Shown here piece by piece: positions 9,918 through 35,073 of a DNA stretch of 64,000 nt (within the stretch, counting starts at the first letter, position 1; the number at the start of each line of letters is the position of its first letter). A program made the position numbers and the translations under genes. The notes beneath the pieces are model-generated. The model was not told the origin of the DNA. It did no database searches and saw only the letters and a list, made by a program, of their open reading frames with translations. Origin of the DNA: Actinoplanes octamycinicus (GTDB lineage Bacteria > Actinomycetota > Actinomycetes > Mycobacteriales > Micromonosporaceae); contig NZ_JACHNB010000001.1 of NCBI RefSeq assembly GCF_014205225.1, positions 2,271,001-2,335,000 on the forward strand. The letters run 5' to 3'.

Positions 9918-10937
9918 ATGCGAGCTGCCGTCTTCGCCGAGCCCGGTCCCGCCGCCACCGTCCTGGAGATCGCCGAGCGCGCGTTGCCGACGGCCGGCGC
10001 GGGGCAGGTGCGGGTCCGGATCGTGCTCTCCGCGGTGAACCCGACCGACACCGGCACCCGGGCCGGCCGCGGCGTGCAGGACGGCGTGGCGCCACCCCGG
10101 GTGCCGAACCAGGACGGCGCCGGCGTGGTCGACGCGCTCGGCGAGGGTGTCACCGGTCTGGAGCCGGGCGACCGGGTCTGGGTCTGGGACGCCGGTTACG
10201 GACGGGCGAACGGCACCGCGCAGGAATATCTGGTGCTGCCCCGCCACCAGGTGGTCCGGATGCGCGACGACGTCCCGTTCGAGGTCGGCGCCGCGCTGGG
10301 CATCCCGGCGCTCACCGCGCACCGCTGCCTGACCGTGGCCGCGGACGGCCCGGCCCGGCTGGCCCCGGGCGCGCTGACCGGGCGCACGGTGCTGGTCGCG
10401 GGCGGCGCCGGCGCGGTCGGCAACGCCACGATCCAGCTGGCCAAGTGGGCCGGCGCCACCGTGCCGACCACGGTGAGCAGCAAGGAGAAAGCGGTGCTGG
10501 CGGCCGCCGCCGGAGCCGACGCGGTGATCGACTACCGGGAGGAGGACGTGGTCGCCCGGGTCCGCGAGCTGAGCCCCACCGGTCCGCAGCTGATCGTCGA
10601 GGTGAGCACCGAGAACCTGGACACCGACCTGGACGTGATCGCCCCCGGCGGCACCATCGCGATCTACGTGGCCGGGCGGGTCGTGGTGCCCAGCTTCACG
10701 GCGATGCTGAAGAACGTCAGCTTGGACTTCGTGCTGACCTACACGACCCGGCCGGAGGAGAAGGCGCACGCGGTGGCCGCGGTCGCCGAGGCGGTGAACG
10801 CGGGCGCGTTCCGGGTCGGCGAGGAGCACGGCCTGCCGATCGTCCGGTTCCCGTTCGACCGGGTGGCCGAGGCGCACGAGGCGGTCGAGAACCACGTCGT
10901 GGGCAAGGTCGTCATCGAGGTGACCGCGCCACGCTGA
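9918..10937 (+). CDS. NADPH:quinone oxidoreductase-like MDR protein
   Basis: Zinc-independent medium-chain dehydrogenase/reductase of 339 aa. The N-terminal GroES-like domain carries VNPTDTGTRAG and NQDGAGVVDALGEGV; the Rossmann domain has the nucleotide loop VLVAGGAGAVGNATIQLAKWAGA (about residues 160-180). No catalytic-zinc cysteine/histidine set is seen, which fits the quinone-reductase branch (like zeta-crystallin). GTG ATG occurs at the start; I chose the ATG at 9918. The 3' end overlaps pseG, which is convergent, by 26 bp. Substrate not predictable. Confidence 0.9.
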   Translation: MRAAVFAEPGPAATVLEIAERALPTAGAGQVRVRIVLSAVNPTDTGTRAGRGVQDGVAPPRVPNQDGAGVVDALGEGVTGLEPGDRVWVWDAGYGRANGTAQEYLVLPRHQVVRMRDDVPFEVGAALGIPALTAHRCLTVAADGPARLAPGALTGRTVLVAGGAGAVGNATIQLAKWAGATVPTTVSSKEKAVLAAAAGADAVIDYREEDVVARVRELSPTGPQLIVEVSTENLDTDLDVIAPGGTIAIYVAGRVVVPSFTAMLKNVSLDFVLTYTTRPEEKAHAVAAVAEAVNAGAFRVGEEHGLPIVRFPFDRVAEAHEAVENHVVGKVVIEVTAPR

Positions 10938-11922
10938 GCAGGGCGCCGGCCACCCGTTCCACGCCGCGGCCGTCGACCGCGGCCCAGCCGGCCACGGCCA
11001 GCGCGGTGCGTGCCGCCGGGTCGGTGAGCAGCGTGCGCAGCACGTCGACGGCGGTGACGTCGAAGGCGCCCAGCCGGCCCAGTCCGGCGGCGTAGCCACG
11101 GGCGACCGTCCGGTCGTACCCGAGGATCTGGTTGTCGACCACCCAGACCAGCGCCGCGGCCCGGCCCAGGCAGAGCAGCTCCCAGGTCGACGTGCCGCTG
11201 GCGCTGACCACCAGGTCGGCGCCGGCCAGCAGCTTGGGCAGGTGGTCGGTGGGCGCGATGATCTCGAACCGCTGCCCCGGGCCGGCCGGGACGGCTTCCA
11301 GCTCGGCGCGCAGGCTGTCGTCGGCCGCGACCACGGTGGCGTCGAAGGGCACGCCGGTGTCCGCGAGGAGTCGCGCGACCGGCGGCGCGGCACGGTAGGC
11401 GTCGGTCCCACCGAAGAACGCGACGACCTTCGGCGTACGCACGGAGCCGTGCACCGGAGCCGCAACCGGGCGCAACTGCCGCACCGCCGACCGCAGCAAC
11501 GCGTAGTCCAGCCCGGTCAGCAGCCGCCCGTCCGCGGCCAGCGCGGTGTCCAGGTTCTGGTCGACGTAGATGTCGGCGCTCTGCCCGCGGGTGGCGCCGT
11601 CCACGATCGCCAGGACCGGGACGCCGGCCGCCCGGACCGCCGCGGTGTGCTGCGGCGGCAGCGTGTAGGAGTCCACCACCAGCGCGCCCAGGCCGAGCCG
11701 CCGGGTGGCGGCGACCAGGCCCACCTCGTCGTAGGGCGCCGGGTGCCAGGGCAGCCCGCGCTGGTCGAGCTGTGCCTCGGCCCAGGCCACGCCGCCCAGG
11801 TCGGCGAGGAAGTGCACGTCCACGCCGCGCGCGGTCAGCTCCTCGGCCAGCGCCACGCACCGCACCAGATGCCCGACCCCGGTGCGCGGTCCGGCGTCGC
11901 AGCGGATCCCGATCGCCATCAT
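10912..11922 (-). CDS. pseG: PseG-like UDP-sugar hydrolase (SpsG family)
   Basis: In the pseudaminic acid pathway PseG removes UDP from UDP-2,4-diacetamido-2,4,6-trideoxy-altrose. This 336-aa protein shows the SpsG/PseG hallmarks: IGIRCDAGPRTGVGHLVRC at the N-terminus with the glycine loop and catalytic-type His, DSYTLPP, VVAFFGGTDAYR, and ADLVVSASGTSTWELLCLG in the GT-B-like C-terminal domain. It is the last gene of the minus-strand operon starting with pseB. The ATG ATG start at 11922 has GGCAGG six bases upstream; this start region is itself the first of three 89-bp direct repeats. It overlaps the convergent MDR gene by 26 bp. Confidence 0.88.
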   Translation of the reverse strand: MMAIGIRCDAGPRTGVGHLVRCVALAEELTARGVDVHFLADLGGVAWAEAQLDQRGLPWHPAPYDEVGLVAATRRLGLGALVVDSYTLPPQHTAAVRAAGVPVLAIVDGATRGQSADIYVDQNLDTALAADGRLLTGLDYALLRSAVRQLRPVAAPVHGSVRTPKVVAFFGGTDAYRAAPPVARLLADTGVPFDATVVAADDSLRAELEAVPAGPGQRFEIIAPTDHLPKLLAGADLVVSASGTSTWELLCLGRAAALVWVVDNQILGYDRTVARGYAAGLGRLGAFDVTAVDVLRTLLTDPAARTALAVAGWAAVDGRGVERVAGALLSVARSPR

Positions 11923-12185: not shown

Positions 12186-12914
12186 TCATGCCTGGGACAG
12201 CTCCTTCTGGTGCACATGCGCGTTCAGCTCGACCAGCTCAGGATGCTCGGCGAGCCACTCGGCGACGGCCGCCACGCCGACCGGGCGGTCACCGAACCGG
12301 TCGACGATCGCCTCGATCAGCTTCCAGTCGTCCTCGGTGTCCAGGGTCAGCCGCAGGTGCGACCGGTCCGGCAGCACGGTCACCCCGATCACGTCGAACT
12401 CGTCCGGGTGCGAGTAGAGGTACGACGTCACGTGCGTCCGGTGGTACCCGGTCGCCCGGTCGTCGATCGCCCGCAGTACGGCCGCCCGGACCACCTCGAC
12501 GTCCAGCCCGCGCGGCAGCGTCCGGGTGATCGAGGTGGTCAGGTAGTCCACACCGGACGCCGCGAAGACGTCGCACACCCGCCGGACCAGCGCCGGGTCC
12601 AGCAGCGGGCAGTCCGCGGTGAACCGCAGCACGGTGTGCACGTCGTCCCGCCCGGCGAGCACGCCGAGGAACCGGGTCAGCACGTCGTCGACCGGACCGC
12701 GGTGGCAGGCCACCCCGATCCGGGCGCACTCCGCCGCGACCGCGTCGTCGGCGGCCTCGGTGGTGGTCGCGACGACCAGGTCGTCGACCACCCCGCTGTC
12801 CCGGGCGGCGCGGACCACCCGGTGCAGGACGGTCCGGCCGCCGAGCCGGCGCAGGACCTTGCCGGGGAGCCGGGTGGAGCCCGTCCGGGCCTGGATGATG
12901 CCGAGGGTGGTCAC
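12186..12914 (-). CDS. SpsF-family cytidylyltransferase, probable CMP-nonulosonate synthetase
   Basis: Nucleotidyltransferase of 242 aa of the COG1861/SpsF type (CMP-KDO synthetase homologues). It begins GIIQARTGSTRLPGKVLRRL, the CTP-binding loop, and has LRFTADCPLLDP (metal-binding Asp) and YLTTSITRTLPRGLDVEV. No NeuA/PseF-type (COG1083) gene is seen in the window, so this is the best candidate for activating the sugar made by PseI to its CMP form; that assignment is inference. The GTG start overlaps the stop of the methyltransferase gene (GTGA). The spacer to pseG is filled by 89-bp repeats. Confidence 0.85.
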   Translation of the reverse strand: MTTLGIIQARTGSTRLPGKVLRRLGGRTVLHRVVRAARDSGVVDDLVVATTTEAADDAVAAECARIGVACHRGPVDDVLTRFLGVLAGRDDVHTVLRFTADCPLLDPALVRRVCDVFAASGVDYLTTSITRTLPRGLDVEVVRAAVLRAIDDRATGYHRTHVTSYLYSHPDEFDVIGVTVLPDRSHLRLTLDTEDDWKLIEAIVDRFGDRPVGVAAVAEWLAEHPELVELNAHVHQKELSQA

Positions 12915-15245: not shown

Positions 15246-16370
15246 CTAGCTCCCGAGAACGCTGCGCAGAGTGTCGATGACGCGGTCCTGGTCGGCGTCG
15301 CTCAGGTCGACGAAGAGCGGAAGGGACAGCTCCTCGGCGTAGAAGGCCTCGGCGACCGGGCACATGCCGCGCCGGTAGCCGAGGTCCTCGAAGACCGGGT
15401 GCCAGTAGACCGGGATGTAGTTGACCTGCACCCCGATCCCGGCCGCGTGCAGCCGGTCGTAGACCTCGCGGCGCCGGCCGTCCAGCACCCGGACCGGGTA
15501 GAGGTGGCGCATCGGGTCGGTGCCGTCCGGGGTCACCGGCAGGCGCAGTCCCGGCACGTCGGCGAGCAGCGCGTCGTACCGGGCGGCGAGCCGCTGCCGC
15601 CGCTGCTTGAACGCGGCCAGCCGGCTCAGCTGCGCGCTGCCCAGTGCGCAGAGCACGTCGGGCAGCCGGTAGTTCAGGCCGAACTCGTGCACCTCGTAGA
15701 ACCACCGGCCCTCGTCCCGGTGGCGCAGCGCCTCCGGCTGCTTGACCATGCCGACCGTGCGGAACGTGCGCAGCCGCTCCACCAGGTCGGGGTGGATCGA
15801 GGCGACCGCGCCGCCCTCGGCGGTGGTCAGGTTCTTGGTCGGGAAGAACGAGAAGGTGGTCAGGTCGGCGATCGAGCCGACCGGCCGGCCGTGGTAGGTG
15901 GAGCCGATCGCGTGCGCCGCGTCCGCGACCAGCACCGCGCCGGCACTGTCGCTGAGCTTGCGCAGCCGGTCGTAGTCGGCCGGCACGCCGGCGTAGTCGA
16001 CCGCGGCGATCGCCCGGGTGCGCGAGGTGACCGCGGCCTCGGCGGCGGCCGGATCGAGATTGGCGGTGTCCTCGTCGATGTCGGCGAAGACCACGGTGGC
16101 GCCGAGCATGGCCGCGCCGGACGCGGTGGCCACGAACGTCATCGGCGTGGTGACCACCTCGTCGCCGCGGCCCAGGCCGGCCGCGGCGTACGCGGCGTGC
16201 AGGGCGGTGGTCCCGTTGGTGACCGTCACGCACGGGGCGCCGGCCACCCGCTCCAGGTCCGCCTCGAACTCGCGGACCCGGGGACCGGTGGTCAGCCAGT
16301 CGCTGCCCAGCGCGGCCACCACGGCGTCCACGTCGGACGGCTCGATGGACTGGCGTCCGTACGGCAGCAT
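15246..16370 (-). CDS. pseC: PseC-like UDP-4-keto-sugar aminotransferase
   Basis: PLP enzyme of the DegT/DnrJ/EryC1 family, 374 aa. PseC aminates C4 of the 4-keto sugar made by PseB. The PLP lysine is in FSFFPTKNLTTAEGGAV, the cofactor pocket in VTNGTTALHAAY and VADAAHAIGSTYHG, and the C-terminal YIPVYWHPVFEDLGY is typical of the UDP-altrosamine branch. The ATG at 16370 shares one base with the pseB stop (GTGATG); a GTG one codon earlier is possible. Direct linkage to pseB supports the specific name over other sugar aminotransferases. Confidence 0.9.
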   Translation of the reverse strand: MLPYGRQSIEPSDVDAVVAALGSDWLTTGPRVREFEADLERVAGAPCVTVTNGTTALHAAYAAAGLGRGDEVVTTPMTFVATASGAAMLGATVVFADIDEDTANLDPAAAEAAVTSRTRAIAAVDYAGVPADYDRLRKLSDSAGAVLVADAAHAIGSTYHGRPVGSIADLTTFSFFPTKNLTTAEGGAVASIHPDLVERLRTFRTVGMVKQPEALRHRDEGRWFYEVHEFGLNYRLPDVLCALGSAQLSRLAAFKQRRQRLAARYDALLADVPGLRLPVTPDGTDPMRHLYPVRVLDGRRREVYDRLHAAGIGVQVNYIPVYWHPVFEDLGYRRGMCPVAEAFYAEELSLPLFVDLSDADQDRVIDTLRSVLGS

Positions 16371-17350
16371 CACTTCTCCGACAGCAGGTCGCGCATCTCG
16401 TCGACCGAGAGCCAGAGGTCGTTGTTGTCGGAGCGGTAGTTGAAGCCGTCGGCGACCTGCTCGCCACCCTCCGGCGCCTGGTAGCCCCAGCTCGCGGCGA
16501 CCGGCTGGACCACGTACCGGTCCTTGAAGCGCAGCGTGCGCCGGCTGTCGTCGGCCGCGATCATCTCCTCGTGCAGCTTCTCGCCGGGCCGCATGCCGAT
16601 CTCGTGGATCGGCGAGTCCGGGGCCACCGCCTCGACCAGGTCGAGGATCCGCATGCTCGGGATCCGCGGCACGTAGAGCTCGCCGCCGCGCATCACGTCG
16701 AACGAGTTGACGACGAACTCGACCGCCTGGTCCAGGGTGATCCAGAACCGGGTCATCCGCTTGTCGGTGATCGGCAGGCTCTGGTTCTCGGCGGCCAGCT
16801 TGCGGAAGAACGGGACCACCGAGCCGCGGCTGCCCATCACGTTGCCGTAGCGGACCACGGCCAGCCGGGTCGGGTGGGTGGCGGCGTAGTGGTTGCCAGC
16901 CACCACGATCTTGTCGGCGGCCAGCTTGGTCGCGCCGTACAGGTTGATCGGGCTGGACGCCTTGTCGGTGGAGAGCGCCACCACCTTCTTGACCTCGGCG
17001 TGGATCGCCGCGTCGATCACGTTCTGAGTGCCGTTGATGTTCGTGGCGACGAACTCCGACGGGTTGTACTCGGCGGTGTCCACCTGCTTCAGGGCGGCGG
17101 CGTGCACCACGTGGTCGATCCCGTGCATGGCCCGGTCCAGGCGGGCCCGGTCCCGGATGTCGCCGAGGAAGAACCGCAGCCGGGGGTCGTCCCCGAAGAT
17201 CTGCCGGACCTCGTACTGCTTCAGCTCGTCACGGGAGAACACCACGATGCGGTGCGGGTCGAGATGCGTGAGCGCGTACTTCAGGAATGCCTTGCCGAAC
17301 GAGCCGGTGGCGCCGGTGACAAGGATCGAGGATCCGCTGATTTCAGACAC
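16370..17350 (-). CDS. pseB: PseB, UDP-GlcNAc 4,6-dehydratase (C5-inverting)
   Basis: First enzyme of CMP-pseudaminic acid synthesis, converting UDP-GlcNAc to the 4-keto-6-deoxy-altro sugar. 326 aa SDR fold with NAD loop LVTGATGSFGKAFLKYAL, then VFSRDELKQYEVR, HAAALKQVDTAEYNP, VVALSTDKASSPINLYGATK with the catalytic Lys, and MRPGEKLHEEM. The short form without membrane helices, together with GSFGKAF, marks the inverting PseB type rather than PglF/CapD. Start is the GTG at 17350, with GGAG seven bases upstream; the longer reading frame reaching 17449 has no support. It is the first gene of the operon and faces the acyl carrier protein gene across a 189-bp divergent promoter region. Confidence 0.94.
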   Translation of the reverse strand: MSEISGSSILVTGATGSFGKAFLKYALTHLDPHRIVVFSRDELKQYEVRQIFGDDPRLRFFLGDIRDRARLDRAMHGIDHVVHAAALKQVDTAEYNPSEFVATNINGTQNVIDAAIHAEVKKVVALSTDKASSPINLYGATKLAADKIVVAGNHYAATHPTRLAVVRYGNVMGSRGSVVPFFRKLAAENQSLPITDKRMTRFWITLDQAVEFVVNSFDVMRGGELYVPRIPSMRILDLVEAVAPDSPIHEIGMRPGEKLHEEMIAADDSRRTLRFKDRYVVQPVAASWGYQAPEGGEQVADGFNYRSDNNDLWLSVDEMRDLLSEK

Positions 17351-17539: not shown

Positions 17540-17782
17540 GTGACTGAGCTGCAGAGACTGCGCGACGCGTTCCGTACCGCGCTGGACCTTCCGGCGGACG
17601 CGCCCGTGGACGACCTGCGCTACCAGGACAATGAGAAGTGGGACTCCCTGGCGCACATGTCGCTTGTCGCGGCTATTGAAGATGAATTCTCGGTAATGAT
17701 CGACACCGACGATGTCATCAATATGTCCAGCTTCGCCGAGGCCGCGCGAATCCTCGGTAAATACGGGGTGGACGTCAAGTGA
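17540..17782 (+). CDS. Acyl carrier protein
   Basis: 80-aa carrier protein. The phosphopantetheine attachment Ser is in EKWDSLAHMSLVAAIEDEFS (about residue 36), in the expected place after helix 1, and the acidic helix 2 continues as FSVMIDTDDVINM. The GTG start has GGGAG 8 bases upstream. It is the first gene of a six-gene plus-strand operon in which each of the next four genes overlaps its predecessor by 4 bases. A dedicated ACP beside an acyl ligase and a reductase points to carrier-bound acyl intermediates rather than housekeeping fatty-acid synthesis. Confidence 0.92.
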   Translation: MTELQRLRDAFRTALDLPADAPVDDLRYQDNEKWDSLAHMSLVAAIEDEFSVMIDTDDVINMSSFAEAARILGKYGVDVK

Positions 17783-18510
17783 GCGTCGCCCTGGTCACCG
17801 GGGCGTCGCGCGGCATCGGCCGGGCGGTCGCGCACCGTCTCGCCGAGCAGGGGTACGACCTGGTCCTGCACGGGCACGGCCCGGCCGGGGTGGCCGAGGC
17901 GGCCGAGGCGCTGGCCGGCAAGTTCGGTGTGACCGTGCTGCACGGCGCCGGCGACATCGCCGACCCGCAGACCAGCAAGGCCCTGGTCCGCCTGGCCTTC
18001 GAGCGATTCCAGCGGCTGGACGCGCTGGTGGTCAACGCCGGCACGCACGCCGCCGGGATGCTCGGCATGACCGGCGACGACACCATCGCGCGGCTGTTCG
18101 CGGTGAACGCGGCCGGCGCGGCCTACACCCTGCAGCACGCGGTCCGCCTGCTGGCCCGCGGCGAGCACCCGGCCGTGGTGCTGACCGCCTCGATCACCGG
18201 CACCCAGGGCGCGGCCGGCCAGGCCGTCTACGCCGCGTCCAAGGCCGCCGTGGCCGGCCTGACCCGGTCGGCCGCCAAGGAGCTCGGCCCGCGCGGGATC
18301 CGGGTCAACGCGGTCGCGCCCGGCTTCATCGCCACCGACATGCTCGACACCCTGGACGAGGCCGGCCGCGCCGAGCGGATCGCCGGCACCGCGCTGGGCC
18401 GGCTGGGCACCGCCGAGGAGGTGGCCGACGTGATCGCCTTCCTGCTCTCCACCCAGGCCCGGTTCGTGACCGGCCAGATCGTCGGGGTCGACGGGGGACT
18501 GACGCTGTGA
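17779..18510 (+). CDS. FabG-like 3-oxoacyl-ACP reductase (SDR)
   Basis: Classical short-chain dehydrogenase of 243 aa. NAD(P) loop VTGASRGIGRAVAHRL, catalytic Ser in TASITGTQG, YAASKAAVAGL with the Tyr-x3-Lys pair, and the family end VTGQIVGVDGGLTL. Its GTG overlaps the ACP stop (GTGA at 17779), so it is coupled to the carrier protein; the natural substrate is then a 3-oxoacyl-ACP, giving a 3-hydroxyacyl-ACP. The SDR fold is certain; reduction of an ACP-bound substrate is inferred from context. Confidence 0.9.
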   Translation: MSVALVTGASRGIGRAVAHRLAEQGYDLVLHGHGPAGVAEAAEALAGKFGVTVLHGAGDIADPQTSKALVRLAFERFQRLDALVVNAGTHAAGMLGMTGDDTIARLFAVNAAGAAYTLQHAVRLLARGEHPAVVLTASITGTQGAAGQAVYAASKAAVAGLTRSAAKELGPRGIRVNAVAPGFIATDMLDTLDEAGRAERIAGTALGRLGTAEEVADVIAFLLSTQARFVTGQIVGVDGGLTL

Positions 18511-19730
18511 ACCTGCTCCACCCCGACGCCCGGGTGCTCGACGCCGCGACCGGCGACCAGCTCACCCCCGAGATGATCGACGCGGCCGCCGCCGAGCTGG
18601 CCGGCGAGCGGCTGGTCTTCCTTCCGATGCCGGCCACCGTCCCGGCGGTCGCCCGTTACCTGGCGGCGCTGCGTCTCGGCGTGCCGGTGGTGCTGCTCGA
18701 CCCGGAGACCGACCACACCGACCTGATCGAGCGGTACGCCACCGACCGGGTGCACCCGGACCTGGCCCTGCTGCTCACCACCAGCGGGTCGACCGGCAAC
18801 CCCAAGCTGGTCCGGCTGTCCCGCTCGGCGGTGCTGGCCAACGCCGGCCAGGTGGCCGACAGCCTCGGCATCACCGGGGCCGACGTGGCGATCACCACGC
18901 TGCCGCTGTTCTACTCGTACGGCCTGTCGGTGCTGCACTCGCACCTGCTGCGCGGGGCCACCGTGGTGCTCGAGCGCACCGGCATCATGCAGCGCGACTT
19001 CTGGGCGGCGGTGGACGAGCACCGGGTCAGCTCGATGGCGTTGGTGCCGTACCAGTACGAGATGCTCCGCCGGCTCCGCTTCGACCCGGCGAAGTACCCG
19101 TCGCTGCGGACGATCACGCAGGCCGGCGGCCGGCTGCGGACCGAGCTGGTGTCCGAGTTCGCGGGCCGGATGGCGGCCGTGGGCGGCCGGATGTTCGTGA
19201 TGTACGGGCAGACCGAGGCCGCGCCGCGGATGGCCACGCTGCCCGCCGAGCGGATCGCCGACAAGCTCGGCTCGGTCGGCCTGCCGATGGCCGGCGCCAG
19301 CTTCACCATCGAGGACGGCGAGGTCGTCTACCGCGGCCCGAACGTGATGATGGGGTACGCCGAGTCCGCCGCCGACCTGGTCAAGGGTGACGAGCTGGGT
19401 GGCGTGCTGCGCACCGGCGATTTGGGCCGGCTCGACGACGAGGGGTTCCTGTTCATCACCGGGCGGCGCAAGCGGATGGGCAAGGTGTTCGGCGTCCGGA
19501 TCAACCTGGACGACGTGGAGCGCGAGTTCCCGGTGACCGCGGTGGCCGGCGACGACAGACTGCACGTCTTCGCCGAGGGGATCGGGGACGACGAGGCCCG
19601 CGCCTTGCGGACGAAGATCGCCGAGTGGCTGGGCAGCCACTTCACCGGCATCGACGTGCGGGTGATCGAGGCGTTGCCGCTGCTGCCCAACGGCAAGACG
19701 GACTATCGGGCGCTGGAGGCGTCGCTGTGA
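18507..19730 (+). CDS. AMP-dependent acyl/aryl ligase (ANL superfamily)
   Basis: Adenylate-forming enzyme of 407 aa, shorter than usual acyl-CoA synthetases (about 500). The P-loop-like motif is LLTTSGSTGNPKLVRLSRS (about residues 90-108), followed by MFVMYGQTEAAPRM, the hinge region LRTGDLGRLDDEGFLFITGRRKRMGKVFG and the C-terminal Lys in LLPNGKTDYRAL. All core motifs are present, so the short length reflects trimmed N-terminal parts, not a break. GTG start in a 4-base overlap with the reductase. It may load an acid onto the adjacent ACP. Confidence 0.9.
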   Translation: MNLLHPDARVLDAATGDQLTPEMIDAAAAELAGERLVFLPMPATVPAVARYLAALRLGVPVVLLDPETDHTDLIERYATDRVHPDLALLLTTSGSTGNPKLVRLSRSAVLANAGQVADSLGITGADVAITTLPLFYSYGLSVLHSHLLRGATVVLERTGIMQRDFWAAVDEHRVSSMALVPYQYEMLRRLRFDPAKYPSLRTITQAGGRLRTELVSEFAGRMAAVGGRMFVMYGQTEAAPRMATLPAERIADKLGSVGLPMAGASFTIEDGEVVYRGPNVMMGYAESAADLVKGDELGGVLRTGDLGRLDDEGFLFITGRRKRMGKVFGVRINLDDVEREFPVTAVAGDDRLHVFAEGIGDDEARALRTKIAEWLGSHFTGIDVRVIEALPLLPNGKTDYRALEASL

Positions 19731-20761
19731 GTGTCTTCACCCTGCCGCAGGTGGACAAGGAAGCGGTGTTGTTGCCGCAGCTCGCCGACCTGACCAAGCA
19801 CCATCGGGCGAACTGCGAGCCTTATGACCGCATCCTCGCCGCCTCCGGCTTCGCCGAGGCCGCCGACCTCTCCGCGTTGCCCTGGCTGCCGGTGCGGCTC
19901 TTCAAGACCCTGGAGCTGAAGAGCATCCCGGACGACGAGGTGTTCAAGGTCCTCACCTCCAGCGGCACCACCGGCGACGTCAGCCGGATCTACCTGGACA
20001 AGGCGGCCGCCGCCGAGCAGCAGCGACGGCTCGCCGCCACGGTGCAGACCGTGCTCGGCCCGAAACGGCTGCCGATGCTGCTGGTCGACACGAAGGCGAT
20101 GCTCAAGGACCGCCGCTCGTTCAGTGCCCGGGGCGCCGGGGTGCTCGGCATGTCGACCTTCGGCCGGGACCACGTCTGGGCGCTCGACCTGGACGGCCGG
20201 GTCGACCTGGCGGCGATCCGCGGTTTCCTCGACCAGCACGGTGACCAGCCGTTCCTGATCTTCGGGTTCACCTTCCTGGTCTGGCTGCACCTCTACGAGG
20301 TGGCCCGGGACCACGGCCTGGACCTGTCGAACGGCATCCTGATCCACTCCGGCGGCTGGAAGAAGCTGGTCGACCAGGCGGTCTCGCCTGCCGAGTTCCG
20401 GTCCCGGCTGGCCGGCGTCGGCCTGACCGCCGTGCACAACTACTACGGCATGGTGGAGCAGATCGGCACGATCTTCCTGGAGGGGCCGGACGGCGGCGCG
20501 CTCTACTGCCCGGACTTCGCCGACGTGATCATCCGGGATCCGGAGACCTGGGCCGAGCTGCCGCCCGGCAAGCCGGGACTGATCGAGGTGATCAGCACGC
20601 TGCCGACCTCGTACCCCGGGCATGTGCTGCTCACCGAGGACCTCGGCGTGGTGCACGGAATCGACGACGGGGCCTGGCCGGGCAAGCGGTTCTCGGTGCT
20701 CGGGCGGCTGCCCCGGGCCGAGGCGCGGGGCTGCTCCGACACGTACCGGGAGGCGTCGTGA
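19727..20761 (+). CDS. LuxE/PaaK-like acyl-protein synthetase
   Basis: 344-aa homologue of LuxE, the subunit of the bioluminescence fatty-acid reductase complex that activates an acid as acyl-AMP and passes it to an internal cysteine and then to LuxC. Seen here: LPVRLFKTLELKSIPDDEVFKVLTSSGTTG (nucleotide loop) and FGFTFLVWLHLYEVARDHGL, ILIHSGGWKKL, HNYYGMVEQIGTIFLEG, which match the LuxE domain closely. GTG start overlaps the ligase stop by 4 bases. No luxA, luxB or luxD is found in the window, so light production is not suggested. Confidence 0.9.
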   Translation: MSVFTLPQVDKEAVLLPQLADLTKHHRANCEPYDRILAASGFAEAADLSALPWLPVRLFKTLELKSIPDDEVFKVLTSSGTTGDVSRIYLDKAAAAEQQRRLAATVQTVLGPKRLPMLLVDTKAMLKDRRSFSARGAGVLGMSTFGRDHVWALDLDGRVDLAAIRGFLDQHGDQPFLIFGFTFLVWLHLYEVARDHGLDLSNGILIHSGGWKKLVDQAVSPAEFRSRLAGVGLTAVHNYYGMVEQIGTIFLEGPDGGALYCPDFADVIIRDPETWAELPPGKPGLIEVISTLPTSYPGHVLLTEDLGVVHGIDDGAWPGKRFSVLGRLPRAEARGCSDTYREAS

Positions 20762-21939
20762 TCTTTCGATTCGGGGTTGCGGGTGACCTCACGGCGCCGT
20801 CCGAGGATCGGCTCACCGTCGGGGATCCGCGGATCGTCGACTTCCTCGCCAAGCTGGCCCGCAAGCTGCTCACCCCGGCGCTCGCCCGGCGGCACCCGGA
20901 GCTGGGCTCGCTCGGCTACTTCCTGCGCCCGGCCGAGCTCCGCCGCGCGGTGGCGCGGATGCAGCGGGACGACGCGCTGGTCTTCCCGCGCGGCACCGTC
21001 TTCCACCTGCCACCGGCCAACGTGGACACCATCTTCGTGTACTCCTGGGCGCTCTCCGCGCTGGCCGGCAACCACAACGTGGTCCGGATCTCGACCCGGG
21101 CGGCCGGCGCCGCCGAGGCCATCTTCGACGCGCTGAACGCGGTGGACGCCGACCCGGTGATCGCCCGCACCCAGCGGATGGTCACCTACGGCCGGGACGA
21201 CGCGATCACCGCGGCGCTGAGCCGGTGGGCCGACCTGCGGGTGATCTGGGGCGGCGACGCGGCGGTGGACGCCATCCGCCGGCACCCGCTGCGCCCGTCG
21301 GCCCGCGACCTGACCTTCCCGGACCGCACCTCCTGGGCGGTCCTCTCGGTGCCCGGCTGGCGGGCCGCCGACCCGGCCGCCCGCCGGGCCGCGGTGACCG
21401 GATTCGCCAACGACGCGTACTGGTTCGACCAGGCCGCCTGTTCGTCCCCGCGGACCGTCTTCCTGATCGGTGACGGCGACCTCGACGCGGTCCGGCGGGA
21501 GTTTCTCGACCTGCTGCTCGATGTCGTCGACCAGCGCGGCTGGACGGTGGACGCGGCGATGGCGGTGGAGAAGCGGGTGCACGCCTACGGGCTGGCGGCG
21601 ACCGGCGCGGCCACCGCGGTGAGCTTCCCGGACAACCGGATCACCGCGCTGACGCTGACCGGATCGGATCAGGTGCCGCGGCGCTGGATCGGGGCCGGCG
21701 CGTTCCCGTTCGCGCACGCCGGCTCGCTGCTCGACCTGGTGCCGGCGATGACCCGGCAGGACCAGACCGTGAGCCACTTCGGGTTCACCCCGGCCGAGCT
21801 GGGCGAGTTCGCCACCGCGCTGGGCGGCCGCGGAGTGGACCGGATCGTGCCGTTCGGCTCGGCGCTGACCTTCGGCGCGATCTGGGACGGGTACGACCTG
21901 CCCGCCGAGTTCACCCGCCTCACCACCCTGCAGACCTGA
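20758..21939 (+). CDS. LuxC-like acyl-CoA/acyl-protein reductase
   Basis: 393-aa aldehyde-dehydrogenase-fold enzyme of the LuxC family, which reduces an activated acyl group with NADPH to an aldehyde. The catalytic cysteine is in FDQAACSSPRTVF (about residue 227), matching the LuxC active-site pattern; NVDTIFVYSWALSALAGNHNVVRIS is the nucleotide-binding region. GTG start overlaps luxE-like stop by 4 bases. Together with the LuxE-like protein it forms a fatty-acid-reductase-type pair. The aldehyde could be a precursor for amination or for attachment to a sugar; this is inference. Confidence 0.9.
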   Translation: MIFRFGVAGDLTAPSEDRLTVGDPRIVDFLAKLARKLLTPALARRHPELGSLGYFLRPAELRRAVARMQRDDALVFPRGTVFHLPPANVDTIFVYSWALSALAGNHNVVRISTRAAGAAEAIFDALNAVDADPVIARTQRMVTYGRDDAITAALSRWADLRVIWGGDAAVDAIRRHPLRPSARDLTFPDRTSWAVLSVPGWRAADPAARRAAVTGFANDAYWFDQAACSSPRTVFLIGDGDLDAVRREFLDLLLDVVDQRGWTVDAAMAVEKRVHAYGLAATGAATAVSFPDNRITALTLTGSDQVPRRWIGAGAFPFAHAGSLLDLVPAMTRQDQTVSHFGFTPAELGEFATALGGRGVDRIVPFGSALTFGAIWDGYDLPAEFTRLTTLQT

Positions 21940-21950
21940 TCAAGCGAGCG

Positions 21951-24239
21951 ATGACGACAACCCTGGTGGCCCCCGCGGCCACGGAGACGGCGTCCGGCCC
22001 GCCCCGCGCGTGGCGGTCGCTGCTGCCCTGGATCCTCCCGGCGGTGGCGGCGCTCGGGGCGTTGCTGGGCACCGGTACGCCGGCCCGGGACATCGCGGTC
22101 TACGGCGGGTATTTCCTGCTGGCCATCGTCGTACCGGGAACCCTGGTCCTCCGGGCCTTCTTCGGCAGCCGGGGCAACTGGCCGGAGGATCTGGCGCTGG
22201 GCACCGCCACCGGCCTGGTGGTGATGCTGGCCGGGTGGGCGCTGGGTGCGGCGCTGAGCCTGCAGTCGCTGCTGATCGGCTGGCCGGTGCTGGTGGTGCT
22301 GCCGTTCCTGCTGGTGCCCCGGCTGCGGCGGTGCTGGCGGCGGGGCGCGGGGGAGCCGCTGCCGCTCGGCTGGCACGGGGCGATGGCCGCGGTGCTGCTG
22401 CTGGTGATCCTCTGGCTGGCCACCGTCTTCCAGAACTTCCCGCTGCCGCCGGTCCGCTTCGAGTACTACAAGGACCTCTACTACCACCTGGCGCTGGTGC
22501 ACGAGATGACCCGCTCGATGCCGTTCCAGGTGCCGCAGCTGGCCGGGTACGAACTCCGCTACCACTACCTGTCCGACGCGGACCTCGCCACCGCGCACAT
22601 GGTCACCGGGATCGCCCCGACCACGCTGCTCTTCCGGCTGTGGCTGCTGGCGATCACGGTGGCCGGGGTGTTCGCCTTCGCCACCCTGGCCCGGGTGGTC
22701 AGCGGCCGCTGGTGGGCCGCGCCGGTCGCGGCGGCGGCCGGATTCGCCGGGCAGGCGGTGTCGTTCGGCTCGGCGGCCGCCACCTTCAACAGCGGCGGCC
22801 CGGTCACTCTGCTCAGCCCGTCGCAGGACCTCGCCATGCCGCTGATCGCCCTGTTCGCGGTGCTCGCCGTGGACCGGCTGCGCGGCCGCCCGCTGGGCTG
22901 GGGCTGGGCTTTCCTGCCGGTCCTGGCGGTGGCCAACGCCGGCGCCAAGGCGAGCGTGCTGCCCCCGCTCGCGGCCGGCCTGGCGCTGGCCGCGGTGGTG
23001 TCGCTGTGGCGGCGGCGGACGACGCCGTGGGCGGCGGCCGGCCTGTTCGGGGTGACCGCGTTCGGCATGCTGTTCGGGGCCACGTTCTTCGCCGGCGGCG
23101 GGGCGAGCGTGCTCCAGCCGCAACCGTTGGGCACGCTGCGCTGGATGGCCCCGTACACGGAGACGCTGGGCGTGCACGACGGCCCGCGGTGGGGTGGCCT
23201 CGTGCCGCCCGGTATCCAGGACGCCGGCACCACCGGCCGGCTGTTCGTCGCCTGGGTGGTGATCTGGGCGCTCCTGCTGCAGGCGCCCCGATTGATCGGG
23301 TTGGTGCTGCCGCCCCGCACGCGCGGGACCGGTGACCCGGCGCTGCCGCTGATCGCCGGGGTCCTGATCGCCGGCACCGCGGCCACCTGGGTGTTCTGGC
23401 ACCCGACCGCGAGCCAGATCTACTTCTTCGCCGGGGTGATCCCGTTCGGCGCGGTGCTGGCCGCCTGGTCGCTGGCCGACCGCGCCCGTTCCTGGCGGGT
23501 TCCGGTCGCCGGGGCGGTCGCCGGGGCGCTCTGCGCCGTGCTGCTGCCCGACGTCGGCCCGCCGGCCGGCAAGACCGTCGGCGACTGGGCCTGGACCCTG
23601 GCCGTGCCGCTGCTCCGGCTCGCCGCGATCACCGCGGTGGTGGTCGCGGTGGTGCTCGCGGTCCGGCGGGGCCGGGCCCGGCGGGCGCTGCCGGTGGCGC
23701 TGATCGCCGCCACGCTGGGCGCCGGGGTGGCGACCTGCACGGCGCACAACGTCGACGCGGTCCTCGACACCTCGGTGGCCAAGGGCGAGCCGAGATACCA
23801 GGTCACGGCACTGGAGATGCGGGCGGCACGGTGGCTGGACCGCAACGCCGGAGCGAACGACCTGGTGGCGACGAACGTGCACTGCCGGCCGATCAGCGCC
23901 GGACAGCCCTGTGACGCCCGGGCGTTCTGGGTGGCCGGCCTCGGCGGCCGTCGCACGCTCGTGGAGAGCTGGGGTTACAGCGACCAGGCGCTGGCCCGGA
24001 ACGGGACGAACAACCTCAACTACGTCTACGCGCCACCGCCGGACCGGAACGTCTACGCGCTGAACCAGAAGGCCTTCACCACCGGTGACCCGGCGGTCGT
24101 CGCCCGGCTGCGGGACGAGTACGGCGTACGCTGGTTGTTCGCCGACAGCCGGGCCGGAAAGGTGGCGCCGGAGCTGGCCGCGGTCGCCACCGAGCGGCTC
24201 CGTCTCGGTACGGTGACCATCTATGAGCTGGGCCGGTAG
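21951..24239 (+). CDS. Large polytopic membrane protein, GT-C-like
   Basis: 762 aa with many hydrophobic helices across residues 25-580 and a soluble C-terminal domain of about 150 residues. After the first helices an extracytoplasmic-type loop reads FEYYKDLYYHLALVHEMTRSM and YELRYHYLSDADLA, an acidic/Tyr/His-rich loop as in GT-C glycosyltransferases; the C-terminus holds WLDRNAGANDLVATNVHC and GLGGRRTLVESWGY, segments I associate with lipid-linked sugar transferases. It starts 11 bp after the LuxC-like gene and is probably the last gene of that operon. A membrane glycosyltransferase or polymer-transfer role is inferred; no family name is secure. Confidence 0.75.
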   Translation: MTTTLVAPAATETASGPPRAWRSLLPWILPAVAALGALLGTGTPARDIAVYGGYFLLAIVVPGTLVLRAFFGSRGNWPEDLALGTATGLVVMLAGWALGAALSLQSLLIGWPVLVVLPFLLVPRLRRCWRRGAGEPLPLGWHGAMAAVLLLVILWLATVFQNFPLPPVRFEYYKDLYYHLALVHEMTRSMPFQVPQLAGYELRYHYLSDADLATAHMVTGIAPTTLLFRLWLLAITVAGVFAFATLARVVSGRWWAAPVAAAAGFAGQAVSFGSAAATFNSGGPVTLLSPSQDLAMPLIALFAVLAVDRLRGRPLGWGWAFLPVLAVANAGAKASVLPPLAAGLALAAVVSLWRRRTTPWAAAGLFGVTAFGMLFGATFFAGGGASVLQPQPLGTLRWMAPYTETLGVHDGPRWGGLVPPGIQDAGTTGRLFVAWVVIWALLLQAPRLIGLVLPPRTRGTGDPALPLIAGVLIAGTAATWVFWHPTASQIYFFAGVIPFGAVLAAWSLADRARSWRVPVAGAVAGALCAVLLPDVGPPAGKTVGDWAWTLAVPLLRLAAITAVVVAVVLAVRRGRARRALPVALIAATLGAGVATCTAHNVDAVLDTSVAKGEPRYQVTALEMRAARWLDRNAGANDLVATNVHCRPISAGQPCDARAFWVAGLGGRRTLVESWGYSDQALARNGTNNLNYVYAPPPDRNVYALNQKAFTTGDPAVVARLRDEYGVRWLFADSRAGKVAPELAAVATERLRLGTVTIYELGR

Positions 24240-25624: not shown

Positions 25625-25664
25625 CCGATCCATGGGGTTGCGACGGGGCCGTATCGTCCCCAGC

Positions 25665-27221
<1,557 letters not shown>

Positions 27222-31534: not shown

Positions 31535-32509
31535 TCAGGCGCAGCGGGCGCAGCCCTGGCCGGCGCTGGTGACGGTCAGGTTGTCGAGTTCCACGCCGGA
31601 GGCCTGTTCCACGACGAGGGGTGACCAGTTGCCGGCAGTCCCGGTCCCGGCGAGGTGGCAGTCACGGACCACGCTGTCGCGGTAGGGCAGGACGGTGACC
31701 ACCCCGTCCACCTCGCTGCGGCCCCAACCGGCGATCCGGACCGCGTACCGGGGCCCGGACCAGCGCACACAGACGTCGCGCACCGCGATCCGCGCGCCGA
31801 CCTCCCCGGACGACGACGACACGAAGCGGTCGGTGTTGTCGCCGGGCAGCAGCCGGAAGCCCATCTCGACGTCGCGCAGGCAGGCGCCGGTCACCCGGAC
31901 GTCGTACACCGAGCTGAGGTAGAACCCCTCGACCGCGTCCCGGACCCGCAGATCAGAAACGGTCAGCCGGTGCGGGTGGTAGGTCGGCCCGGCGATCGAC
32001 GACACGTCCGCGCCGGCCGCACCCCAGTGCACCGCCACCCCGGTGTACCCGCCGGTGACCAGCACGTCGTGCAGCGTGGTGTCGCGGACCGCGCCCATCA
32101 CGCCGATCCCGTTCGCGGTCCGCAGCGGGCCGTGGTCGACGTGCACCCGGCGGATGTCGACGTCGCCGATCCACTGCGGCTCACCGCGGTACAGGTACTC
32201 GCCGACGGTGAGGCCGGTGCCCCGGTCGCCGCCGTGCTCCCCCGGGTCGGACGGGGCCGGCCGGAGCCCGAGGTCGCTGATCGACACCGCGGAGCCGAGC
32301 ACGTGCAGCACCGGGTGCCCGGTCCGGGACGCGGAGACCAGCCAGGTGTCCCCGGCCGAGGCGCCGCGCAGCGTCCAGCCGCCGGGCACCCGCAGCCCCT
32401 CGGCCAGCGGGTGGTCGCCCGGGGGCAGGTCGAGGGTGCCCGGCGGCTCGGTGTCCAGCAGGTCCTGCAGCGTCCGGTGGTTCGCCACCGGGTCGTCACC
32501 GAGAAGCAT
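31535..32509 (-). CDS. Right-handed beta-helix repeat protein
   Basis: 324 aa. The sequence shows repeating short strands with Asn/Gly/Val turns (VSISDLGLRP, VDIRRVHVDHG, DTTLHDVLVTGGYTGVAVHW, RLTVSDLRVRDAVEGFYLSS, DSVVRDCHLAG, ELDNLTVTSAG), the pattern of pectate-lyase-like beta-helices. There is no signal peptide, and it ends with Cys-Ala-Arg-Cys-Ala. It starts 3 bp after the preceding gene's stop and is last in the second glycan operon. Beta-helix proteins in such loci often act on or bind polysaccharide; no catalytic residues can be assigned. Confidence 0.75.
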   Translation of the reverse strand: MLLGDDPVANHRTLQDLLDTEPPGTLDLPPGDHPLAEGLRVPGGWTLRGASAGDTWLVSASRTGHPVLHVLGSAVSISDLGLRPAPSDPGEHGGDRGTGLTVGEYLYRGEPQWIGDVDIRRVHVDHGPLRTANGIGVMGAVRDTTLHDVLVTGGYTGVAVHWGAAGADVSSIAGPTYHPHRLTVSDLRVRDAVEGFYLSSVYDVRVTGACLRDVEMGFRLLPGDNTDRFVSSSSGEVGARIAVRDVCVRWSGPRYAVRIAGWGRSEVDGVVTVLPYRDSVVRDCHLAGTGTAGNWSPLVVEQASGVELDNLTVTSAGQGCARCA

Positions 32510-32512
32510 GGG

Positions 32513-33517
32513 TTACCGCGTCCCGGCCGGCCGGGACGATCCGGGCGGGGCCGGCGCGGCGCGCTGGGGCGACGAGCCGGTCAGGCGCCAGGACAGGGTG
32601 GGCTGCGCCTCGGCCGATCCGAGCAGCACCGGGTTCACCGGCGGCTCGGCCAGCCGTACGGTGGCCGTCCCGTCCGCCCCGCGGGTCACCTCGGCCCGCA
32701 CCGGTGAGCCGGTGATCAGGTCGGTGGCCAGCACCTCGGCCAGCTCGCCGGGCCGCTGCGGGATCGCCCGCACCGCCACCCGCCGGGCCGCCCGGGACAG
32801 CTTGAAGACGGCGCGGGCCGGCTTCTGCCGGGTCCACCGGTTGCGCGGGCTGATCGCCACCGGCGGCGCCGCCGCCACCCCGGCCGCCGCCAGCCGGTAG
32901 CCGAGCGGCCCGCCCGGCTGGACGATCGCGAAGTCGCAGCCGGTGTGCCCGGCCGGGCCGCTGACCGGGGCGGCCTGCTCGGCGGGCTGCGCCGTGACGC
33001 TGTTGAGCCGCAGGCCGATCGCCGAGCGCGGGCTGAGCCGCCCGGCCGCCCACTCCGGGTGCCGTGCCTCGGCCAGCTCCACGATCAGCAGGCCGTCCTC
33101 GGCGAGTTCCCCGGCGGCCAGGTCGAAGCCGAGGGTGGCCTCGGCCGGCGCGGCGGCCCGCCAGCCCTGCCGCCGGGCCAGCACCAGCGCGCCGCGGATC
33201 CGGCCCTGCGCCCGCACCAGGACCAGCCGGGGCAGTTCGGGCGCCAGCCGGGACGGCCGCACCCGGTCGGACCACCAGCGGGTGGCCATCTCGTCCAGGC
33301 CGACCGAGACGGCGACCCGGACCGGGCCGCCGGTGCCGTTCACCTTGATCGCGACCGCGCCGAACTCGCCGGCCGCCCGGGCCACGATGCCGGTGCCCCG
33401 GATCATTTGGTCCACGATCCGGATCGCCGAGCTGGATCCGCTGGTCAGCTCCATCGGCAGGGTGGCGGCCACGGCCGGCTCGTCGAAGTCGGTGCGGAAG
33501 TGCCGGCCGGCCCTCAT
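32513..33517 (-). CDS. Unknown protein of the second glycan operon
   Basis: 334 aa, family not recognised. The middle (about 60-170) alternates short beta-like segments such as FGAVAIKVNGTGGPVRVAVSV and RLVLVRAQGRIRGALVLA, consistent with a beta-sandwich; the C-terminal third is rich in Pro, Arg and Ala. No signal peptide or membrane helix. The ATG overlaps the stop of the upstream putative glycosyltransferase (ATGA at 33517-33514), and the beta-helix gene starts 3 bp after its stop, so the three are co-translated and probably functionally linked. Confidence 0.7.
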   Translation of the reverse strand: MRAGRHFRTDFDEPAVAATLPMELTSGSSSAIRIVDQMIRGTGIVARAAGEFGAVAIKVNGTGGPVRVAVSVGLDEMATRWWSDRVRPSRLAPELPRLVLVRAQGRIRGALVLARRQGWRAAAPAEATLGFDLAAGELAEDGLLIVELAEARHPEWAAGRLSPRSAIGLRLNSVTAQPAEQAAPVSGPAGHTGCDFAIVQPGGPLGYRLAAAGVAAAPPVAISPRNRWTRQKPARAVFKLSRAARRVAVRAIPQRPGELAEVLATDLITGSPVRAEVTRGADGTATVRLAEPPVNPVLLGSAEAQPTLSWRLTGSSPQRAAPAPPGSSRPAGTR

Positions 33518-35073
33518 GACAGGTCGGTCCGGGTCAGCAGCGGCTCGCGCCGGGTCCACATCCGCTCCACCGTCTCGAAGAGCGGATCGGCGTCGCTCTC
33601 GATGTGCCGGAACGTCGCCCGCAACGACTTGAGCAGGATGTTCGCGCCCCAGACCTCCCACTGCGGGACCTGCGGGGTGACCACGTCCGAGCCGCTGCGG
33701 TAGAGCCACAGCCAGAGCCGGGCGCGCTGCACCTGCTCCTCGGTGACCAGGTCGGCGCCGTCCCGGATCGCCGTGATGCTCTCGTCCAGCGTCTTGAAGT
33801 AGGCGTCGGTCGAGTCGACCACGGTGGACAGTCCGCACGAGCTCCACTCCGACCAACCGGCCTGGACCACCGGGATGCCGTAGGCGGGGAGCTCGTTGCT
33901 GACGCTGCCGCGCACCGTGACCCCGAGGTCGGTGAGGCTCCACAGCGCGTTCTTGCTCAGCGTGGCGCTCGGCTGGAAGATCATGTGCGGCGACTTCCGG
34001 TGCCGCCGGGCCAGGTCGTCGAAGAAGCCGGTGGAGTCGTAGAGCCGCTGGCTCGGGTGGTCCAGGAACAGCCACTGCGCGTCGGTCCGGGACGCCGCCC
34101 AGTCCGCCGTCTCGGTGAACCAGGCGGAGAGGCTGGGGAACAGCTCCCGGTTGGTGCCGAGCGCGTCCGAGACGGCGTGGTTGAAGACCGCCACGATCGG
34201 TTTCTCCGGGTCGAACCCGAACCGGGCCGCGGCGTGGCTGCGCAGCAGGGCCCGCTCGGCCGGGTCGTTCAGGTCGACCGAGGCGTTCGTGCCGCCCCGC
34301 CACCAGCTCGGCCGGCCCAGGTTGACCTTGGCCCGCCAGGCGATCAGCTCGGTGGTCGGGCGCAGCTGCTCCCGGCGCGGCCAGACCCGGGTCTCGAAGA
34401 CCTCGCCGATCTGCCGGGTCAGCTCACCCCGGAACGTCTCGGTGTGCGTGTCGTGCTCGGGGAACAGCGCGTACGCCTTGAGGCAGCCGGTCTGCTGGGT
34501 GTGGATCACCGGGACGCCGGCCCGGCGCGCCACGTCCACCGCGAGCCCCCACTGGTCGTAGTCGACGTGGCTGGTGACCAGCGCGACGACGTTCCGGGTG
34601 GCGAACGCCTCCTCGTAGTACGCGGCCAGGGCGTTGCCGTAGCGGACCCGCTCGGCCGGCGGGTTCTCCCGCATCCGGGCGAGTTTGGCGAGCCGGGCGT
34701 CGGTCGCCCGGATGGTCTCGGTGACGTCGAAGGACGGCGTGGCGTCCGACCGGCGCACGACGTCCCAGACGTCGATCACCTCGGCCGCGCCGTACGCCTG
34801 GCAGAACTCCCGCACCAGCGACACGTCGAAGCCCTGCCACAGCGTCTTGGCCCAGGCCTCCTCGACCCCGGTGACGACGACCATCCGGGACGGGCGCACC
34901 CGGCGGATCGCGTTGGCGACCGCGAGGTTGCGCAGCGTCACCCGCAGGTCCTGGTGGAACGCCTCGACCAGCACCACCCCGTCGTCGGCCGGGGCCGGCA
35001 GGTTCTTCTGCCAGAACACCTCGGCGGCGTTGAGGAAGTGCTTCCACTCCTGCTTGTTCGCGTTCAGCAGCAC
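33514..35073 (-). CDS. Putative capsule-type glycosyltransferase
   Basis: 519 aa cytoplasmic protein. The N-terminal part carries ALVTSHVDYDQWGLAVDVAR and GVPVIHTQQTGCLKAYALFP, and the C-terminal part DAQWLFLDHPSQRLYD, LSKNALWSLTDLGVTVRGSVSNELPAYGIPVV, the kind of sequence seen in GT-B capsule polysaccharide enzymes where SVSNELPAYGIP would be the donor-site loop. I could not assign a precise family. The GTG start lies one base after the PseI stop. Position directly behind the nonulosonate synthase makes a nonulosonate transferase an attractive but unproven reading. Confidence 0.65.
   Translation of the reverse strand: MLLNANKQEWKHFLNAAEVFWQKNLPAPADDGVVLVEAFHQDLRVTLRNLAVANAIRRVRPSRMVVVTGVEEAWAKTLWQGFDVSLVREFCQAYGAAEVIDVWDVVRRSDATPSFDVTETIRATDARLAKLARMRENPPAERVRYGNALAAYYEEAFATRNVVALVTSHVDYDQWGLAVDVARRAGVPVIHTQQTGCLKAYALFPEHDTHTETFRGELTRQIGEVFETRVWPRREQLRPTTELIAWRAKVNLGRPSWWRGGTNASVDLNDPAERALLRSHAAARFGFDPEKPIVAVFNHAVSDALGTNRELFPSLSAWFTETADWAASRTDAQWLFLDHPSQRLYDSTGFFDDLARRHRKSPHMIFQPSATLSKNALWSLTDLGVTVRGSVSNELPAYGIPVVQAGWSEWSSCGLSTVVDSTDAYFKTLDESITAIRDGADLVTEEQVQRARLWLWLYRSGSDVVTPQVPQWEVWGANILLKSLRATFRHIESDADPLFETVERMWTRREPLLTRTDLS

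Follow-up and report, generated by a model that had tools for sequence, protein, structure and literature searches.

The 64,000-nucleotide stretch of the Actinoplanes octamycinicus genome analysed here (the window; positions 2271001–2335000 of a 10.28 Mb single-contig genome) contains a five-gene block, referred to as the cassette, which is set within a cluster of genes for the biosynthesis of pseudaminic acid (Pse). The cassette encodes an acyl carrier protein (ACP), a FabG-like member of the short-chain dehydrogenase/reductase (SDR) family, an AMP-dependent acyl ligase, a LuxE-like acyl-protein synthetase and a LuxC-like acyl reductase (Table 1). All four junctions between these genes are 4-base GTGA overlaps, and 11 bp separate the LuxC gene from that of a large membrane protein; the gene order, overlaps, gap and divergence of the block from pseB had been described in an initial annotation, with which the coordinates agree exactly. 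The absence of luxA and luxB from the window, also remarked upon there, was confirmed in that none of the 43 genome matches to the luciferase family PF00296 falls inside it (luxD was not searched for). The same annotation placed the block between two nonulosonate operons. Nonulosonate genes do lie on both sides, pseB, pseC and the pseF-like and pseG-like genes to the left and pseH and pseI to the right, but they are really the halves of one Pse pathway. The closest named relatives of the LuxE protein, among the matches listed, are from Actinoplanes and Paractinoplanes, with up to 91% identity.

To judge from their motifs, the cassette enzymes look active. The LuxC active-site segment AACSSPR, previously noted as intact, contains Cys228, whose column is Cys in 109/109 aligned rows; the column of LuxE Cys336, in the C-terminal RGCSD, is Cys in 106/106 rows, and both residues align with the Cys-bearing segments of the LuxC–LuxE chains of PDB entry 7xc6. 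The serine motif is present in 83/83 ACPs and YxxxK in 105/105 SDRs, and the ligase motif in 99 of 108 ligases. The nearest solved relatives of the cassette SDR are FabG enzymes, and the block is without a ketosynthase.

Table 1. Genes of the cassette and of the surrounding Pse cluster, with positions in the window
Feature	Position	Strand	Family match or basis
ACP, DSL serine motif (EKWDSLAHM)	17540..17782	+	Pfam PP-binding 6.3e-06
SDR-family reductase, FabG-like, YxxxK present	17779..18510	+	Pfam adh_short_C2 4.6e-59
AMP-dependent acyl ligase	18507..19730	+	Pfam AMP-binding 5.3e-38
LuxE-like acyl-protein synthetase, C336	19727..20761	+	Pfam LuxE PF04443 1.5e-43
LuxC-like acyl reductase, C228	20758..21939	+	Pfam LuxC PF05893 3.5e-30
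Polytopic membrane protein, soluble C-terminal part	21951..24239	+	0 Pfam matches
pseB, divergent from cassette	16370..17350	-	TIGR03589 483.4 bits, over cut-off 407.75
pseC	15246..16373	-	TIGR03588 401.2 bits, narrowly under cut-off 423.5
Conserved Pse-cluster protein, 272 aa	14425..15243	-	0 Pfam matches
Conserved Pse-cluster protein, 505 aa	12911..14428	-	0 Pfam matches
pseF-like cytidylyltransferase	12186..12914	-	PF02348
pseG-like protein	10912..11922	-	Named from position and reading; 0 family matches over cut-off
Three conserved genes downstream of pseI (519, 334, 324 aa)	31535..35073	-	0 families over cut-off
pseI	35075..36091	-	TIGR03586 461.9 bits, over cut-off 340.25
pseH, cassette-associated type	36088..36537	-	TIGR03585 63.4 bits, under cut-off 93.1
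Glycosyltransferase family 2 (GT2) protein of Pse cluster	36542..37603	-	

Distribution of the cassette

LuxE-bearing loci were compiled from 29 of 31 chosen stretches and from the best 80 of at least 546 relatives found in one scan, and the resulting 109 loci were collapsed at 85% LuxE identity into 43 dereplicated loci (loci and genomes carry our own L and G numbers). Within this LuxE-selected set, LuxC is present in all 43 loci, the ligase in 42, the SDR in 41 and the ACP in 37, the genes having been called with a simple codon-position caller by which short ACP genes are easily missed. The grouping of the cassette genes exceeds chance.

A family sample of 300 genomes contained LuxE (E≤1e-20) in 97, PseI over its cut-off in 135 (141 at E≤0.001) and flagellin over its cut-off in 93. 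LuxE and PseI occur together in 80 genomes, LuxE alone in 17, PseI alone in 55 and neither in 148 (Fisher p=4.7e-20, a value that ignores relatedness), and the block is thus tied to pseI, which 80 of the 97 LuxE genomes carry. The two genes are on one contig in 78 of these 80 genomes, 0.8 and 5.6 Mb apart in two of them and within 27 kb in the other 76. Flagella are not the common factor, since the association persists among the 207 genomes without flagellin (both genes in 20, LuxE without PseI in 5, PseI alone in 54, neither in 128). A flagellin-specific role was considered as a general rule and rejected on account of those 20 genomes and of ten in the window's own genus code: all 67 genomes of that code in the sample have a flagellin match (weak in G588), yet ten of them lack both LuxE and a PseI over cut-off; the flagellin gene of the window's own genome lies approximately 1 Mb from the window.

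Outside Pse loci the same cassette is found beside genes for other amino sugars, so that the description of the pathway in the initial annotation as dedicated to nonulosonates is too narrow. A DegT amino-sugar transaminase is encoded in 33 of the 43 dereplicated loci, a candidate sugar acyltransferase in 30 and at least one of them in 40; far from lying mostly away from glycan loci, the block thus keeps this company almost throughout. Neither gene was detected in 20 own-genome stretches of 19.5 kb, a result that shows only a low background because the transaminase and acyltransferase queries came from the loci that were then counted. The acyltransferases, near which most cassettes outside Pse loci lie, are of several kinds. 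An LpxA-like family is encoded directly upstream of the ACP gene in 13/43 loci (the L055 member matches TIGR01852 at 2.9e-45, under cut-off), NeuD/PglD proteins over cut-off directly follow LuxC in L046 and L051, and a PseH-like GNAT protein (TIGR03585, 7.3e-20, under cut-off) is encoded near the cassette in L045. On a Deinococcus plasmid the same five genes are followed by NeuD (185.5 bits against a cut-off of 160.8). That a single cassette accompanies sugar acyltransferases of unrelated families is an indication that it makes an acyl donor.

In a variant seen on each of two Rhizobium plasmids (L150, 4422–6907; L151, 3203–5692), the genes for ACP, ligase, LuxE and LuxC are accompanied by two for transketolases and one for a NeuD/LpxA-like acyltransferase, with a DegT gene annotated on one of the plasmids; the LuxC aldehyde could here be a transketolase acceptor. 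A rearranged order of ACP, LuxE, extra SDR, SDR, ligase and LuxC was seen in L053 (9268–14713), in a genome that also has a cassette of the usual order.

PseH types and the second cassette

In 79 of the 80 genomes with both LuxE and PseI the highest-scoring PseH reaches 135 bits or more; in the 55 with PseI but without LuxE none does (maximum 121.6). The 135-bit line was picked after the scores had been seen, and seven of the 55 genomes, whose match row was unprinted, were entered at 94 bits from their listed E-values, all below the line. The sole exception, G396, gave a partial PseH match of 64% identity, and in the PseH tree its protein groups with the cassette type. Comparison of 17 loci having LuxE in the fetched stretch with 37 having none within it (a class that includes LuxE-positive genomes) gave median identities to the window proteins of 72 and 72% for PseI, 76 and 76% for PseB and 69 and 68% for PseC, and of 62 and 46% for PseH. 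When the loci are sorted by genome, PseH identity to the window ranges from 53 to 88% in 27 LuxE-positive loci as against 41 to 48% in 22 LuxE-negative loci.

In a PseH tree built from the 27 fetched LuxE-positive sequences plus that of the window and from 22 LuxE-negative sequences, a single branch (SH-aLRT 99) parts the 28 LuxE-positive from the 22 LuxE-negative rows, whereas the trees of PseI, PseB and PseC require 4, 6 and 5 changes, respectively, for the same split. The LuxE-negative rows were drawn from 23 fetched of the 55 genomes with PseI alone, of which G501, truncated by a contig end, contributed no PseH sequence; all other genomes entered the comparison through scores alone. Nine residues mark the two PseH types. 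Column 120, which we take to be the site of the acid that protonates the leaving thiolate in GNAT enzymes, holds His in 28/28 cassette-type rows and Asn in 22/22 others. The same column is Tyr in C. jejuni PseH (4xpk). In G654, which belongs to the window's own genus, LuxE is absent and PseH is of the other type, and yet PseI is still 86% identical to that of the window.

Nine LuxE-positive genomes (G532, G607, G631, G643, G658, G669, G670, G465 and G445) lack the cassette at the pseI–pseB junction, where relatives such as G573, G683 and G666 carry it. All nine hold, elsewhere in the genome, a five-gene cassette of a second type beside a Gfo/Idh dehydrogenase and DegT transaminases, and the cassette type of PseH is retained in 9/9. 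At the junction itself a remnant of the SDR was detected in G658 (52% identity over 59 aa, E=5e-5), with weaker matches in G465 and G445 (E=0.02 and 0.006). G532 and G658 also retain there a solitary, intact ACP complete with its serine. One genus code (g2) has 14 LuxE-positive genomes with one LuxE each, seven of the Pse-linked block and seven of the second type, and on a joint PseI–PseB–PseC tree of 13 of the 14 the cassette type undergoes three state changes. On a plain reading, the two types of cassette would share one product and either could feed PseH. The set can also be split: in G400 ACP–SDR–ligase lies approximately 17 kb from LuxE, and in G441 the fetched stretch holds LuxE–LuxC but neither an ACP nor a ligase. 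These split sets suggest that the cassette consists of two working units.

Proposed role of the cassette

The proposal in the initial annotation that the block supplies an acyl group for a nonulosonate is well supported by comparison, given that the block is tied both to pseI and to one PseH type. What genome comparison supports in particular is the coupling to that PseH type, the apparent ability of a second cassette to stand in for the first and the conservation of the active-site cysteines, and we consider it probable that the cassette provides the acyl donor for PseH. The further suggestion that the aldehyde itself, or a modified lipid anchor, is the product finds no support; since sugar acyltransferases recur near the block, what it finally makes is more likely to be an acyl thioester. 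The adjustment of a 3-keto group, which was also suggested there, is possible in view of the FabG-like SDR, although a ketosynthase is missing from the block.

Our current working hypothesis, which we favour without great confidence, is that the cassette produces an unusual N-acyl group for Pse and loads it, along a route leading from a diacid to acyl-ACP and on to PseH. LuxE would adenylate one carboxyl of a small diacid, such as succinate or malate, and hold the acyl group on Cys336, from which it would pass to Cys228 of LuxC and be reduced to the semialdehyde. The SDR would then reduce the aldehyde to a hydroxy acid, either 4-hydroxybutyrate or dihydroxybutyrate, the AMP ligase would load this acid on the ACP, and PseH would move the acyl group to the 4-amino group of the PseB/PseC product, later N7 of pseudaminic acid. 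At other loci, LpxA-like, NeuD/PglD-like or PseH-like acyltransferases with different amino sugars as substrates would draw on the same cassette. A passage through semialdehyde, hydroxy acid and acyl-ACP is suggested because the block encodes two adenylating enzymes, and only LuxE/LuxC would be expected to reduce a carboxyl group; that the acyl group does arise by partial reduction of a small diacid we regard as an even chance. We infer the order of the first three steps, the role of the ACP as direct donor to PseH and a surface polymer as the recipient.

The acid would presumably be 4-hydroxybutyrate or dihydroxybutyrate, for both of which passages in the literature (the source, in part, of this and the later comparisons with published systems) offer points of reference. 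Pse with amide-linked 4-hydroxybutyrate has been described (PMC9912281, in which teichulosonic acid and Kribbella, an actinobacterium, are also mentioned). In V. cholerae O1 the amino groups of perosamine carry 3-deoxy-L-glycero-tetronate (PMC3441752), RfbL is credited with the activation of 2,4-dihydroxybutanoate and, putatively, with its attachment to CoA or the carrier RfbK (PMC12208996), and a LuxE domain is recorded in RfbN (PMC4772473). Compared through these papers, the V. cholerae O1 rfb tetronate pathway resembles the cassette in having a carrier protein, a ligase for a dihydroxybutanoic acid, a LuxE-domain protein and an N-acylated amino sugar. It differs from the system in the window in that the sugar is perosamine rather than Pse. 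Functions of the kinds concerned, namely a carrier, a ligase, a dehydrogenase, a LuxE/LuxC-type reductase and a sugar N-acyltransferase, are encoded in the window. The remaining members of the tetronate pathway, which Morona is said to have set out in 1995, reportedly include a dehydrogenase of the iron-type alcohol dehydrogenase class.

A cassette-bearing strain, Aeromonas piscicola AH-3, has been reported to carry a 376.14 Da Pse derivative together with an unexplained moiety of 102 Da (PMC7874193). The computed mass of Pse5Ac7Ac (316.127) after one acetyl is swapped for C4H6O3 is 376.148 Da, and that of C4H6O3 is 102.032; the fit is suggestive only. Aeromonas caviae Sch3N, for which just six genes necessary for flagellin glycosylation are described, carries Pse5Ac7Ac (PMC3426422; the glycan is also stated in PMC3958885).

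Several observations weigh against the hypothesis. The mass of 376 Da fits isomers as well, for example O-methylglyceroyl, and the comparison concerns two Aeromonas strains. In H. pylori and C. jejuni, where PseH has been characterized, the donor is acetyl-CoA (PMC4964394). The TIGR03585 score was tried as a separator of acetyl-CoA PseH from acyl-ACP PseH and failed: five proteins of each type were scored and none of the ten reached the cut-off, so that the profile cannot say which type uses acetyl-CoA. Strong PseH matches occur without LuxE in G488 (87% complete, with PseI cut at contig ends) and in G469 (PseI absent), and PseH is missing from the stretch at three Pse loci of LuxE-positive genomes, those of additional PseI copies in G474 and G403. 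Among the 17 genomes with LuxE but without PseI, ten have a PseH-like match of 124–146 bits and seven have none, and three of the 43 loci (L049, L053 and L079) are without both the transaminase and a candidate acyltransferase. Finally, once corrected for relatedness, the PseH association comes down to four independent switches on the PseI tree, all four in agreement (sign test p=0.125).

This small number of events leaves room for the explanation that the link between cassette and PseH reflects shared ancestry of whole clusters, the cassette product being unrelated and modifying, for example, another sugar of the polymer; the layouts of cassette-free and cassette-bearing clusters also differ, as such ancestry would have it. 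We nevertheless hold this to be rather improbable, as PseI, PseB and PseC do not track the LuxE split, PseH stays of the cassette type where the Pse-linked block is missing and the other block present, and in G654 the other PseH type accompanies a PseI so close to that of the window.

A different chemistry is suggested by the SDR, whose FabG-like character also fits a ketoacyl-ACP step and to that extent weighs against the working hypothesis. The ligase would in that case load a short acid on the ACP, the SDR would be a true FabG and 3-hydroxybutyryl-ACP would be delivered to PseH, leaving LuxE/LuxC some side task. Parallels exist: a flagellar sugar bearing a 3-hydroxybutanamido group (a modified viosamine) is known (PMC3958885), and the Flavobacterium psychrophilum O-antigen locus has its own ACP, ketosynthases, a ketoreductase and a PglD-type acyltransferase (PMC6519341). 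We think this route unlikely, as the block has no ketosynthase, and a side task leaves unexplained both the presence of LuxC in 43/43 loci and the invariant cysteine columns of LuxC and LuxE. Least probable in our estimation is the reduction by LuxE/LuxC of a long-chain fatty acid used to lipidate the glycan or its anchor. Such a 'liposugar' is favoured by the homology with the lux fatty-acid reductase and by the interpretation that the authors of the Aeromonas and enterobacterial papers give (PMC7874193; PMC4875605), but sugar acyltransferases recur near the block, the PseH type switches together with the cassette, and the reported Pse derivative is just 60 Da above Pse5Ac7Ac.

Supply of an acyl donor for sugar N-acylation, the reading that we prefer, is what the present analysis adds to a gene arrangement that is already published. 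The Group II flagellar glycosylation islands of 98 Aeromonas strains contain genes for ACP, 3-oxoacyl-ACP reductase, AMP synthetase, luxE and luxC (PMC7874193, 2021), which were read there as fatty-acid genes; the five functions are identically ordered and adjoin pseH and other pse genes. They differ in that the conserved GT2 gene fgi-1 directly follows luxC, where the window has a gene for a 762-aa membrane protein (a GT2-like family does follow LuxC in L064, L066 and L080), and in that the host here is an actinobacterium and the set is found also in genomes without flagellin. Enterobacterial flagellin glycosylation islands, compared by protein list, have the same kinds of protein (Acp, LuxE, LuxC, CaiC and FabG), for which a liposugar was suggested (PMC4875605, 2016). 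The cassette shares its Pfam families and both active-site cysteines with the lux fatty-acid reductase (7xc6) but, unlike it, has no luciferase in the window, includes an ACP and a second ligase, and has a LuxC 84 residues shorter than the 7xc6 chain. The F. psychrophilum O-antigen R-group genes are similar in that a dedicated ACP is thought to feed a PglD-type acyltransferase acting on an amino sugar; they use ketosynthases, and 'luxE' is absent from the main text of the paper (PMC6519341). In the literature surveyed (titles, abstracts and opened passages, with most subscription journals outside it), no paper was found that ties LuxE/LuxC to PseH or to Pse N-acyl supply.

The coupling of PseH to the cassette, even when the two are not neighbours, provides a concrete role for the block in sugar N-acylation, with a predicted mass and a named enzyme that would use the product, and could allow the N-acyl groups of surface sugars to be predicted from genomes. 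Such a role would explain the presence of 'light' genes in the sugar-coat islands of non-glowing bacteria. It is interesting to speculate, although we stop somewhat short of an even chance, that the 'lux' genes of flagellin- and surface-glycan islands are unconnected with fatty acids and instead form a portable module for reducing and loading small acids, in which LuxE/LuxC and the SDR convert a diacid of central metabolism to a hydroxy acid and the ligase and ACP feed any sugar N-acyltransferase, be it PseH, LpxA-like or NeuD/PglD; one copy might then serve two glycans in a cell. If true, this would account for the 376 Da Pse derivative of A. piscicola, and perhaps for the 102 Da moiety.

Neighbouring genes

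The membrane protein encoded immediately downstream of LuxC (762 aa) has 16 hydrophobic segments and a soluble C-terminal part from approximately residue 597, and matched nothing in Pfam or NCBIfam. It may be a glycosyltransferase of the GT-C type. Loci of Actinoplanes and Nonomuraea repeatedly encode, downstream of LuxC, relatives with 30–64% identity. Membership of the cassette core was considered and rejected, relatives being present in just 10/43 dereplicated loci.

The two conserved proteins of 505 and 272 aa (12911–15243) accompany pseB and pseC in many Pse clusters, whether the cassette is present or absent, and relatives of both are duplicated in some (L060). The three conserved genes at 31535–35073 co-occur with pseI in 4/43 dereplicated loci. 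Between the two Pse halves (24314–30190) are genes for a histidine kinase, an M1-type peptidase (named by sequence), a response regulator and an MMPL protein; relatives of the kinase and regulator occupy the same position in the Pse clusters of L059, L060, L061 and L063. A GAF-GGDEF-EAL cyclic-di-GMP protein (37676–39928) adjoins the Pse cluster, and close relatives of it lie beside the cluster in L060 and L063.

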